Part shown: piece after piece, positions 32,193-34,452 of the stretch | How the letters are laid out: every line of letters begins with the position of its first letter | Numbering within the stretch: position 1 is the first letter of the stretch | NCBI RefSeq assembly: GCF_002831665.1 | Contig: NZ_CP025118.1 | Span: forward strand, 3,286,001-3,350,000 | Length of the DNA stretch: 64,000 nucleotides | Origin: Lacinutrix sp. Bg11-31 | GTDB taxonomy: Bacteria; Bacteroidota; Bacteroidia; Flavobacteriales; Flavobacteriaceae | Reading direction: 5' to 3' | Notes under the pieces: generated by a model | Told to the model about the DNA's origin: nothing | Database searches by the model: none | The model's input: only the letters and a program-made list of their open reading frames with translations | Made by a program: the position numbers and the translations under genes

Positions 32193-32323
32193 GTTGCCTG
32201 TATAAATTAATTTAAATGTCAAAAAACACATTTTCTTAAATTCGTAAACTAATAAGATTATTTTTAAATAGTAGGTAGTGTTTTTCGTCGATTTCTATTT
32301 GTTATATACGGATGTTACAAAAC
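32193..32323 (-). repeat. Possible divergent cassette-type site at the downstream end of the array
   Basis: 131 bp, close in length to the two clear repeats. Read on the minus strand it begins GTTTTGTAAC (partner of 32929-32938) and ATCCGTATATAAC, and ends TTTATACAGGCAAC. Inside there is an AAAAACAC / GTGTTTTT stem. The inner sequence is unrelated to the other two copies and no GTT core follows, so this is weaker. Confidence 0.4.
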
Positions 32324-32326
32324 TTA

Positions 32327-32926
32327 TTATTTTTTAGCTTTCTTTTTCATTGATAAAACAGCATATCTTGAAAGTTCACTGTTTTCTAAAATCAAATTAT
32401 GACTAAATGTTGTATAATTATTAATTCCATTTGACGCGCTTTTTTCACCTAATTTCCCTTTAATATAATATGTCTTTCCAGTTTCGGCTTTAATTTCTAC
32501 TAGGCTATCATCTCCAGAACTAAAAAAAGAATGTAATTCGTTACTCTTAATTTTTAGTAGAAAATAACTATTTCCTTTAATCTTAACTAACTCTTTACCA
32601 TTGTGATAAACTTTGAAAGCAGTTGTTTGACCATTATAGATATATACATTAGCAAATCCTAAATCCGGTTTTAGAATTTTAGTTCCTAAAGAGTTTTTTA
32701 CTTTACTAGAATCGGATAAGTAACCGTTTTCAAATTCAACAATTCGTTTTGTTATTATTGATGAATTTCCATTAACATAGTATTTAATCTTACCATTTTT
32801 AATCTCTCTAATTTCGCAAGAAAATTGAAAACCATTTTCGTCTACTAAATAATCTGGAAACTCCTGTGAATAGACTAAACTCGAAAATAGTATCAAAAGA
32901 AGAATAATCGGTGATTTCTGTTTCAT
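32327..32926 (-). CDS. Secreted protein of unknown function (cassette C)
   Basis: A protein of 199 residues with a signal peptide (ending SLVYSQ) and a beta-rich mature part: EIREIKNGKIKYYVNG, then a GQTTAFKVYHNGKELVKIKGNSYFLLKI stretch that recalls DUF2846-like lipoproteins handling short beta hairpins, though I cannot assign a family. It ends in a KKKAKK tail. It is bounded by GTTTTGTAAC three bases upstream of the start codon and GTTACAAAAC just after the stop. It is the last of three cassette genes in transcription order. Confidence 0.72.
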   Translation of the reverse strand: MKQKSPIILLLILFSSLVYSQEFPDYLVDENGFQFSCEIREIKNGKIKYYVNGNSSIITKRIVEFENGYLSDSSKVKNSLGTKILKPDLGFANVYIYNGQTTAFKVYHNGKELVKIKGNSYFLLKIKSNELHSFFSSGDDSLVEIKAETGKTYYIKGKLGEKSASNGINNYTTFSHNLILENSELSRYAVLSMKKKAKK

Positions 32927-32928
32927 AT

Positions 32929-33066
32929 GTTTTGTAACGTTTATGTATATGGAAAGTTGCGGTTTTGTGTGCGAGGATTTTCCGCAGGAAAATCAGATGT
33001 AACAAAAATGCACGAACTCTTGATTAAGCACTAAACTACGCATTATTTTTATGCGATGTTGGCAAC
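32929..33066 (-). repeat. Structured 138-bp attC-like repeat between cassettes B and C
   Basis: About 80 percent identical by eye to the repeat at 33748-33884. Shared parts include GTTGCGGTTTTGTGTGCGAG, the perfect hairpin GATTTTCC / GGAAAATC with a 3-base loop, and CAGATGTAACAAAA. The outer ends (GTTTTGTAAC and GTTGGCAAC) do not match each other but match the far ends of their own cassettes. The right end encodes the last codons of the gene at 33049. Confidence 0.75.
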
Positions 33067-33732
33067 AGTTTTTAGTTTTTTTGTTAATTCAGATATTGTC
33101 ATTTTCTGAATAATATTATTTGTGTTTGCACTTAAAATATCGTCATTTTCCAATTTTAAAATCATCAATTCCGATTGTTCTTTTAACTCAAGTAAAGATT
33201 CGTTTTTCTGTATTTCTACAAGTTTTGTGTCAAATCTTTTTTTCAGAGTTATTGTTCCATTATTATTTAGCAATTCAAAACCAGCATAGTCAATTAAGCT
33301 CTTAATTCCGCTTAAAAATTTAACTCCTAAAACTCCGATTGCTATCATTCCGACAGTTGTGATTAGCGATAAAATACTAAATTCGCCTTCGCTCGAAAAT
33401 GAACCAATAAGACCTAAAATTCCAAAAAATCCAATTAGACAAAATATTATTCCCAAAACAATTGCAACAATATCCATTAAAACAGCTTTGTCAGTTCGGG
33501 TAACTTTAATTGAGTCGCCGAATTTGTCGGCTTTAAATCCAAGATTCTTTAAATAATCAAGATTTTCAATTTCAGAAATTTTTTCGTTAAGAGTGTTTTC
33601 CAAACCTGCGATATTCTCTTGAATATTTCGGTGATTTAATTCCGTTTTTAAATTCAGTTGAGATTGGAATGTCAACTTTTTATGAATTGCTAAAAGTTCA
33701 ATTAATTCTCTATCAGTTTTTCCTTTGTACAT
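33049..33732 (-). CDS. Membrane protein of unknown function (cassette B)
   Basis: A protein of 227 residues: a helical, probably coiled-coil cytoplasmic part (1-75), two membrane segments (about 85-108 and 119-139) and a C-terminal soluble part rich in leucine and glutamate. The last residues (TVANIA) and the TAA stop are read from the attC-like repeat itself, so the end of the protein depends on what site the cassette sits next to. No family recognised. It may be an orphan cassette product. Confidence 0.72.
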   Translation of the reverse strand: MYKGKTDRELIELLAIHKKLTFQSQLNLKTELNHRNIQENIAGLENTLNEKISEIENLDYLKNLGFKADKFGDSIKVTRTDKAVLMDIVAIVLGIIFCLIGFFGILGLIGSFSSEGEFSILSLITTVGMIAIGVLGVKFLSGIKSLIDYAGFELLNNNGTITLKKRFDTKLVEIQKNESLLELKEQSELMILKLENDDILSANTNNIIQKMTISELTKKLKTVANIA

Positions 33733-33747
33733 AGTTTCTCTTAAATT

Positions 33748-33884
33748 GTTGCCAACGTTTATGTATAAGAATAGTTGCGGTTTTGTGTGCGAGGATTTTC
33801 CGAAGGAAAATCAGATGTAACAAAAGCGCAACGACCTTTGATTAAGCACAATGTAGCAATTATTTTTATACGGTGTTACCCAAC
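33748..33884 (-). repeat. Structured 137-bp attC-like repeat between cassettes A and B
   Basis: Read on the minus strand: GTTGGGTAAC, then an outer arm GTATAAAAATAATTGC that pairs at 14 of 16 positions with GCAACTATTCTTATAC near the other end, an inner arm GTTGCGCTTTTG against CAAAACCGCAAC (11 of 12), and a central GATTTTCC TTC GGAAAATC hairpin. It ends AAAC|GTTGGCAAC. Size and nested imperfect arms are like long attC sites such as VCRs. Confidence 0.75.
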
Positions 33885-34411
33885 GTTTTTTCTTTTCTAT
33901 TTAACCATTTAGTAATTCGGTCGTAATTAGTTAGCAAAATATAGCCAACAATTAAATTCATTCCAGAAATTACCCAATTGAAGTAATCCGTTATTTTTCC
34001 AAAACTAAAATCTTCCAATTGATTCAGTCCGTTTGGTGAAACCTCTTTTTTAAATGCTAAATAAGTATATTGTAAAAAGTCAGGTAAATAGTCGATAATC
34101 AAAAATCCGCCAATTAATATCAGGGCAAGTTGCATTATTTTTTGACTATTAAAATTCTTAAATTCAATTCGTTCGTCATCAAATCCTTTGTCTAATTTTA
34201 GAAAGTCAATTATTAAGTCAGTTTTACGAATTAGAAGTATATAAACCAAAACTGTTAAAGCCACAGCTCCAAAAATCCAAAGTAACACAATCGGTTCGAA
34301 TTGAAAAGTTACATAGCTTATATTGGTCGGAATGTATGTGAAAACAGTTAGAATTAATGAGTAAAGTCCGAAAAGTTTTATTATAATTCTAAAAAAATCT
34401 CTTTTTGTCAT
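33866..34411 (-). CDS. Four-helix membrane protein of unknown function (cassette A)
   Basis: A protein of 181 residues with membrane segments at about 9-27, 40-61, 91-110 and 145-162 and a basic C-terminus. Its last codons (TLGNTV) and the TAA stop lie within the attC-like repeat. It starts 17 bases from the GTTGGGTAAC end. There are no recognised motifs; the layout is like many small integral membrane proteins carried by cassettes. Transcription probably depends on a promoter upstream at about 34430-34580 or read-through. Confidence 0.72.
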   Translation of the reverse strand: MTKRDFFRIIIKLFGLYSLILTVFTYIPTNISYVTFQFEPIVLLWIFGAVALTVLVYILLIRKTDLIIDFLKLDKGFDDERIEFKNFNSQKIMQLALILIGGFLIIDYLPDFLQYTYLAFKKEVSPNGLNQLEDFSFGKITDYFNWVISGMNLIVGYILLTNYDRITKWLNRKEKTLGNTV

Positions 34412-34427
34412 AAGTTGGTTTTCAAAT

Positions 34428-34452
34428 GTTGGGTAACGTGTTATATCAACAC
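34428..34452 (-). repeat. Upstream boundary site of the cassette array
   Basis: GTTGGGTAAC (34428-34437) is the complement of the distal end of cassette A. It is followed by GTGTTATATCAACAC, itself a 5-bp hairpin. Beyond it the sequence does not resemble the 137-bp repeats, so this may be a different (attI-like or diverged) site. Confidence 0.4.

Follow-up and report, generated by a model that had tools for sequence, protein, structure and literature searches.

How did three genes come to lie between murI and a gamma-carbonic-anhydrase-like gene in Lacinutrix sp. Bg11-31, and what are the structured repeats that separate them? The genes (181, 227 and 199 aa, all on the minus strand, none with a Pfam family above cut-off) are part of a stretch of 64,000 nt (the window; NZ_CP025118.1, positions 3,286,001 to 3,350,000), and their two neighbours were identified by eye rather than by a family search. 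An earlier reading, made from the letters alone (the sequence-only reading), had proposed an integron-like cassette array. We put the probability at roughly 0.85 that the three genes are cassettes of a chromosomal integron-like system of Flavobacteriaceae, which uses an integrase lacking the IntI-specific I2 region. Judged by sequence signs, the system appears to work like an integron, and its defining domain and core consensus place it outside the IntI family. It is best filed, on this evidence, as a new, I2-less kind (lineage) of integron.

Pairing of unit ends

Complementary ends of 9-10 nt had been described around the three genes. All six were found in place, and each pair was a perfect reverse complement, while the two ends of one repeat in the window did not match each other, as had also been noted. 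Each unit starts with GTT and seven variable bases (the R' box) and ends with the reverse complement of this box, ...AAC (R''), which is the opening of a site of about 125 nt. The site of one unit is closed by the GTT of the following unit. The size of the shared repeat described earlier had to be revised to that of the approximately 125-nt site; the window holds two whole sites and a truncated distal third.

The pairing was examined in 156 sites from four arrays of three species and from the window, with 11 dropped for an unreadable box. There were 131 adjacent pairs, of which 77 were distinct. In 57 of the 77 distinct neighbouring pairs, five or more of the 7 variable bases formed a complementary run, which covered all 7 in 42; the corresponding count in 2000 shuffles averaged 2.5 and never exceeded 9. 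Within single sites, 11/139 reached the same level (shuffled mean 5.7, maximum 14). On these counts complementarity within the repeat, which had been named as a sign against cassettes, was rejected, and across the arrays the pairing ran over the genes instead. Since each unit has ends that pair over the gene between them, the stem would be completed in a closed circle. This is consistent with the suggestion that each unit was once a circle carrying a complete folded site.

Pairs spaced by less than 1100 nt (57 distinct) matched better than long-spaced ones (28 distinct), as would be expected if intervening sites had been missed. The eighth base after GTT was A in 66/66 distinct R' boxes, and was complementary in about 1% of distinct pairs. 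The GTTRRRY consensus was fitted by 5/66 distinct R' boxes, so the earlier remark that the cores do not fit it holds for most of them.

The recombinase at the head of the array

The absence of an integrase from the window was borne out: the genome has seven PF00589 matches, none of them inside the window, where the trio has two whole sites of the type described by covariance model R1 (R1 sites). The integrase lies outside. A tyrosine recombinase of 376 aa (G000:C1:184784-185911; G000 is this genome) is located just upstream of an array of the site of about 31 kb (C1:151919-183443) and is transcribed into it; further copies of the site are scattered over the genome. The sequence-only reading had advised a search for a tyrosine recombinase with the integron additional domain. 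The recombinase was found, heading the array, but the domain (I2) was absent. The alignment showed no counterpart of the 42-residue insertion of IntI that forms the I2 region, and phmmer left 68 IntI residues (179-246) of the Vibrio integrase 2a3v unaligned against 25 query residues. The spacing from the first catalytic Arg to the His of HxxR was 89-90 in 29/29 I2-less proteins and in 28/28 clade-A proteins, 131 in 15/15 IntI and 94-96 in 10/10 XerC/D. The catalytic R, HxxR, H and Y were kept in 28/28 close relatives, and relatives at least 53% identical were present in 34/199 family genomes, one with a stop and one partial.

The NCBIfam model recomb_XerA_Arch, described as 'site-specific tyrosine recombinase/integron integrase', matched the protein narrowly above its cut-off (225 bits vs 220), and the integron integrase model TIGR02249 gave 208.8 bits, below its cut-off of 265. 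In the predicted structure (mean predicted local distance difference test score, pLDDT, 81; predicted template modelling score 0.56), the nearest solved relatives were the archaeal XerA-type 4a8e and 5hxy, together with the Vibrio integrase 2a3v. This fold search with the whole model hardly probes the N-terminal domain. The N-terminal 105 residues or so are modelled with confidence (mean pLDDT 84) as a small alpha/beta domain that belongs to no recognised family. Compared with the PDB, the model of this domain gave no significant match, the best being XPB 2fwr (E 0.1), with the SMARCAL1 HARP domain 4o66 at E 1.4. A profile of the domain matched 21/395 phylum genomes, some weakly and outside the family, and array content there was judged by eye. 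The domain was considered as a replacement for I2 but is not needed, since recombinases too short to contain it also head arrays.

Among the best 80 named relatives of the long integrase, the hosts included Maribacter, Winogradskyella ursingii, Seonamhaeicola aphaedonensis, Algibacter onchidii and Flavobacterium enshiense. A loose pattern was applied to 39 of these 80 named loci, many with short flanks. It flagged a site-like first partner in nine, one of them (L214) doubtful, and no divergent pair of attI and first site was flagged. The other 41, including Sphingobium and further distant relatives, stood outside this array test. No phage source of the integrase appeared in viral_contigs with six short patterns, which is a weak test.

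In 30/30 long integrases from 30 genera, inspected by eye, the stop codon was directly followed by a stretch ending at GTT, usually a palindrome, which we regard as attI. Its GTT 9-mer recurred downstream as the reverse complement in 31/47 entries (shuffled mean 3.1, maximum 8), or in 29/46 after removal of a duplicate locus (L059 = L033) and a spurious-looking match (L085). At L062 the partner had no site-like sequence after it, and of the 16 misses, 7 came from stretches no longer than 210 nt. The divergent layout of classical integrons, with attI and the first site upstream of the recombinase, was seen in 6/7 loci tested on the other side (300 shuffles: mean 0.2, maximum 2); at L168 an attI had no site-like partner. 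Six of these seven recombinases had 272-306 aa, too short for the N-terminal domain. Three further stretches (L169-L171) contained R1 sites and no recombinase within the stretch examined.

Fold of the site

For the 97 pairs whose complementary run reached 6 or more bases, the site of the closed circle was rebuilt by joining R'' of one site to the R' belonging to the same cassette, which gave 88 distinct sequences. With DNA parameters, the bottom strand was more stable than the top in all 88, without ties (mean -26.6 vs -22.0 kcal/mol), though these sites are related and hence not independent. Covariation was examined in 25 sites filtered at 85% identity. In the stem 97.2% of cells were paired, a share inflated by the derivation of the fold from the same 25 sites. 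Eight pairs were altered on both sides, with 49 doubly changed cells compared with 17.1 +/- 2.7 after shuffling; none of 500 shuffles reached 49, and controls with slid partners gave at most 12. Three pairs were G.T in 25, 25 and 24 of the 25 sites and correspond to A.C mismatches in the top strand. Between the R and L boxes lay a loop of 5 against 2 nt in 24/25 sites. The 16-bp L-box stem was irregular somewhere in 10/25, and within the L-box helix no bulge was conserved (inserted base in 2/25, one-base gap in 1/25). The role of the extrahelical bases that I2 reads could fall to the three additional bases of the 5/2 loop.

These features bear on an alternative in which the recombinase acts on double-stranded sites in the manner of Xer or a phage integrase, the stem representing two inverted binding sites and the circles being double-stranded. 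The missing I2 region would fit such an enzyme, as would XerA among the nearest folds and an attI that is usually a palindrome with two inverted arms. However, a double-stranded site would need neither the nearly invariant G.T pairs nor the consistently more stable bottom strand. In addition, R'' and R' of one array site matched no more than expected by chance, and therefore a double-stranded site there would have no matching pair of R boxes. We consider this alternative unlikely.

Signs of cassette exchange

Among 124 cassettes, with units over 2500 nt left out, 66 pairs shared an identity of 85% or more over 85% or more of their length. In nine pairs the identity was 100% and spanned the unit exactly, from GTT to the site end, while the contexts differed: the downstream flanks were unrelated (identity 0.28-0.50 over 60 nt), and the upstream flanks differed in seven (0.43-0.68) and were alike in two (0.90-0.93). 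Two species with MurI proteins 83% identical shared one cassette of 651 nt at 99.85% identity. The identity of shared cassettes begins at C/GTT, which therefore places the crossover in or next to GTT; at the attI junctions, the base before GTT was T, C or A.

High copy number and dispersal, along with a central hairpin seen by eye in many copies of the site, would also be expected of dispersed repeats (like miniature inverted-repeat transposable elements or repetitive extragenic palindromes), or of structured RNAs between genes, spread by homologous recombination. Such an origin can hardly be right: it is contradicted by ends that covary across genes and by identical units that start and stop exactly at GTT. 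At gathering thresholds Rfam gave no family on the sites in the window and two other stretches (L032 and L033), where it found only a transfer-messenger RNA (tmRNA) and two tRNAs; this ruled out the sites as an RNA family.

The units were largely in one orientation. Among 103 distinct cassettes, 79 were sense and 2 antisense, and 22 had no open reading frame (ORF) of 60 aa.

Distribution of the sites and relation to IntI

A search with the window repeat matched 20 of 40 genomes, this one included, all of the same family, with at most 21 matches listed per genome. A profile from the window and 18 further stretches gave 90 first-pass matches, and iteration added more diverged copies. With the covariance model, the window and ten stretches of this genome yielded 50 matches at E <= 0.01, the last two being opposite-strand echoes. 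Applied more widely, as the sequence-only reading had recommended, it showed that the sites are widespread in Flavobacteriaceae, with matches at E <= 0.001 in 129/149 genomes (128/148 genera; the counts per genome cover the best 23 matches at most). In the phylum, 52/198 genomes had matches.

Canonical IntI above cut-off was found in 84/296 phylum genomes. The earlier view that the phylum is an unusual host for integrons was therefore not upheld; what is unusual is an integrase without the IntI-specific insertion. The suspicion of a system distinct from the classical integron was well founded in this respect, and also in R' boxes that rarely read GTTRRRY. Could the arrays nevertheless be ordinary clusters of attC sites lacking integron integrases (CALINs), moved by a canonical IntI elsewhere or since lost, with an unrelated I2-less recombinase beside them? 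IntI is present in the phylum, and in excerpts of PMC9892861 one attC of a Polaribacter phage was used by class 1 IntI1 as the bottom strand, with no top-strand recombinants. That report is partial prior art, and the phage concerned carries an R1-type site, which may or may not be the one tested. Against this, neither the present genome nor any other of the Flavobacteriaceae was among the 86 in which IntI matched at E <= 1e-50; at least 20 family genomes were in the sample. The array-head recombinase of Bg11-31, at 208.8 bits below the cut-off of 265, did not appear in that search. An I2-less recombinase with its own attI adjoins arrays in many genera. Where a genome of another family had both enzymes (G259 and G274), the R1 sites clustered by the I2-less recombinase, as they did in a further other-family genome in which only the I2-less kind was seen (G267); four canonical IntI loci examined had no R1 sites. 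We regard an origin as ordinary CALINs as very unlikely.

In a tree of 54 sequences, IntI formed one clade (99.8/100), the I2-less integrases were split off by 92.9/99, and Xer by 99.4/100. With Xer as the root, these splits make IntI and the I2-less integrases sister groups; the outgroup consisted of flavobacterial XerC/D, without archaeal XerA. An earlier tree was weaker, with 78 at the matching split and two long-branch outgroup integrases inside the ingroup. Like XerC/XerD and archaeal XerA, the array-head recombinase has core-binding and catalytic domains without I2. Unlike XerC/XerD, it heads cassette arrays, and its Arg-to-His spacing and separate clade (split at 99.4/100 from the flavobacterial XerC/D sampled) set it apart from that group.

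The resemblance to IntI integrons (class 1, Vibrio superintegrons and archaeal ones) extends to an integrase beside attI, cassettes that mostly carry one gene and point the same way, sites built as inverted repeats with arms that correspond across the gene, a crossover in or next to GTT, and a bottom-strand fold with R box, unpaired spacer and L box. The differences are the lack of the I2 insertion of about 42 residues, with the shorter R-to-H spacing, R boxes of GTT plus seven bases that rarely fit the consensus, the missing conserved L-box bulge, and a long integrase with an N-terminal domain of about 105 residues, transcribed into the array.

In excerpts of the literature, the IntI-specific additional domain or I2 is called a defining characteristic (PMC9668308). 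Another paper states that I2 is needed to capture cassettes, that it confers recombination of single strands and that it occurs in no other protein, direct proof of causality being said to be lacking since deletion of I2 abolishes IntI1 function (PMC7790495). Smyshlyaev et al. (2021) likewise call the insertion essential for integron function (PMC8138268, in the excerpt seen). The I2-less recombinases may belong to the 'integron-like subgroup' of simple tyrosine recombinases of that paper, whose excerpt describes no cassette arrays for members without the insertion. For Bacteroidetes proper, the excerpt of the IntegronFinder 2.0 paper lists one complete integron as new, that of Salinibacter ruber; flavobacteria are not mentioned there (PMC9024848). 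The CALIN attCs of Polaribacter phage P12002L (PMC9892861, in part) share a flavobacterial host with the present sites, but were reported as canonical and without an integrase. No description of this system occurred in excerpts of PMC7790495, PMC8138268, PMC8618304, PMC9668308, PMC8352920, PMC9892861, PMC9024848, PMC8565304 and PMC7370490, or was found in the open-licence PMC literature, preprints not covered.

In P12002L the R1-type site lies at L272:14503-14624 (E 1.5e-9). Judging from this site, phages may carry such cassettes between hosts.

Proposed mechanism and significance

We propose that the array-head recombinase would excise cassettes as circles, the GTT of one site being joined to the GTT of the next. 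The circle would then insert through its folded bottom-strand site at attI, and occasionally at a chromosomal GTT site.

Several points weigh against the cassette interpretation. Excision, insertion, circles and the use of a single strand are what we infer from sequence, and so is the route by which the trio was inserted, no integrase being near it. The enzyme is linked to the sites by their neighbourhood. Sites and recombinases are related, so that the counts are not independent. According to the excerpts of PMC9892861, at least some sites of flavobacterial phages are open to an enzyme of the IntI type, and past events may conceivably have drawn on an IntI that escaped notice. Finally, the complementary run was only 0-2 bases long in 13/77 distinct pairs (0 in nine, 1 in three, 2 in one); some of these poorly pairing neighbours probably reflect missed sites, and others have perhaps decayed.

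We lean, with appreciable reservation, towards a broader proposal: that the system is a second great integron lineage, sister to IntI and widespread in Bacteroidota, which recombines folded single-stranded sites without I2 and without a conserved L-box bulge. If so, the asymmetric loop and the almost invariant G.T pairs would determine which strand is used, folded-DNA cassette recombination would be older than I2 or have arisen twice, and standard integron finders would have overlooked most of the phylum's integrons. An integrase that never had I2 or has lost it, and that by sequence signs serves cassettes with folded attC-like sites, makes the origin of integrons testable, and the accepted account of their working and origin may need revision. 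The system would also represent a gene-capture platform with sites in most sampled genera of the family and some cargo resembling anti-phage defence.

The locus in the window

The features of the locus are listed in Table 1. The 3' end of the 181-aa gene overlaps its attC-like site, whose bottom strand is read on the + strand, and the stop codon of the 227-aa gene falls within the site that follows it. This second site also belongs to the alignment behind model R1. The site profile gave no match to the third-site remnant.

Table 1. Coordinates of the cassettes, genes, boxes and sites at the murI locus (window positions)
Feature	Position	Strand	Remarks
First cassette (reading direction)	33757..34437	-	R' box 34437-34428, sense GTTACCCAAC; adjoins murI; site ends 33757
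Gene of first cassette, orphan, 181 aa	33866..34411	-	ORF; no Pfam family above cut-off
Complete attC-like site between genes 1 and 2	33754..33877	-	Covariance model R1, 123.6 bits, E 8.1e-23
R'' box, first cassette	33875..33884	-	Pairs with 34428-34437
Second cassette	32939..33756	-	R' box 33756-33748, sense GTTGGCAAC; gene 33049-33732; site ends 32939
Gene of second cassette, orphan, 227 aa	33049..33732	-	ORF; no Pfam family above cut-off
Complete attC-like site between genes 2 and 3	32936..33060	-	Covariance model R1, 96.5 bits, E 3.5e-17
R'' box, second cassette	33058..33066	-	Pairs with 33748-33756
Third cassette	32314..32938	-	R' box 32938-32929, sense GTTACAAAAC; gene 32327-32926; R'' box 32314-32323
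Gene of third cassette, orphan, 199 aa	32327..32926	-	ORF; weak DUF2846 match below cut-off
Third-site remnant	32295..32323	-	R'' box and first ~20 bases of left arm, then unrelated sequence; by eye

A gene order fixed in all relatives had been named as evidence against cassettes, and was not what we found in 12 relatives of the same genus. The stop of the gamma-carbonic-anhydrase-like gene lay 65-510 nt from that of murI in 11 of the 12, the twelfth being unparsed, and no R1-type site occurred within 1.5 kb on either side of murI in any of them; it was present in this genome only. These gaps and the lack of an R1 site ruled out a fixed order at the murI locus. Far from the array, and at a place where relatives have no such site, the trio is best read from the sequence as an insertion at a secondary site or an array fragment, and as having since lost part of its distal site.

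Cargo and associated elements

The 79 cassette proteins were reduced to 72 by removing shared starts, and at least 47 of these had no Pfam family at E <= 1e-5. Of 75 PADLOC families at E <= 1e-10, 25 were listed; they include one DRT4/6-like defence reverse transcriptase, one bSEFIR and two AbiLi/Old/AriA-like ATPases. By these matches, small proteins of unknown kind appear to make up most of the cargo, alongside some genes resembling anti-phage defence. One array (L041-L044, G004:C43) repeats many nearly identical cassettes of about 320 nt, and several units of this size have no ORF of 60 aa; it is possible that such a cassette carries only a regulatory element.

Upstream of the array integrase there is an integrase with an arm-binding domain (L033:7983-9221) and a tmRNA gene (L033:9470-9864), and the array as a whole may be part of, or border on, an integrative element at the tmRNA gene. 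The genome of Lacinutrix sp. Bg11-31 has a second long integrase (G000:C1:2539248-2540357), 39% identical, with one in-frame stop and a few sites alongside (L039); this second platform is likely dead. Near the array of another genome (G008) the integrase appears in pieces, one with an in-frame stop (L119, G008:C1:834901-835345), and the sites are spread over about 160 kb, so that this array is likely a decaying platform.

IS110 elements are known to target the attC sites of classical integrons. Two identical stretches of 1111 nt in the Bg11-31 genome near C1:2541000 (L039:6881-7991 and L039:10289-11399) encode an IS110-type transposase (PF01548, PF02371), and they begin at the R' end of R1 sites, at the GTT position. 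IS110-type elements at R1 sites may thus treat the site as an attC, and similar junctions were also present at L045:14051-14172 and in the Bg11-31 array.

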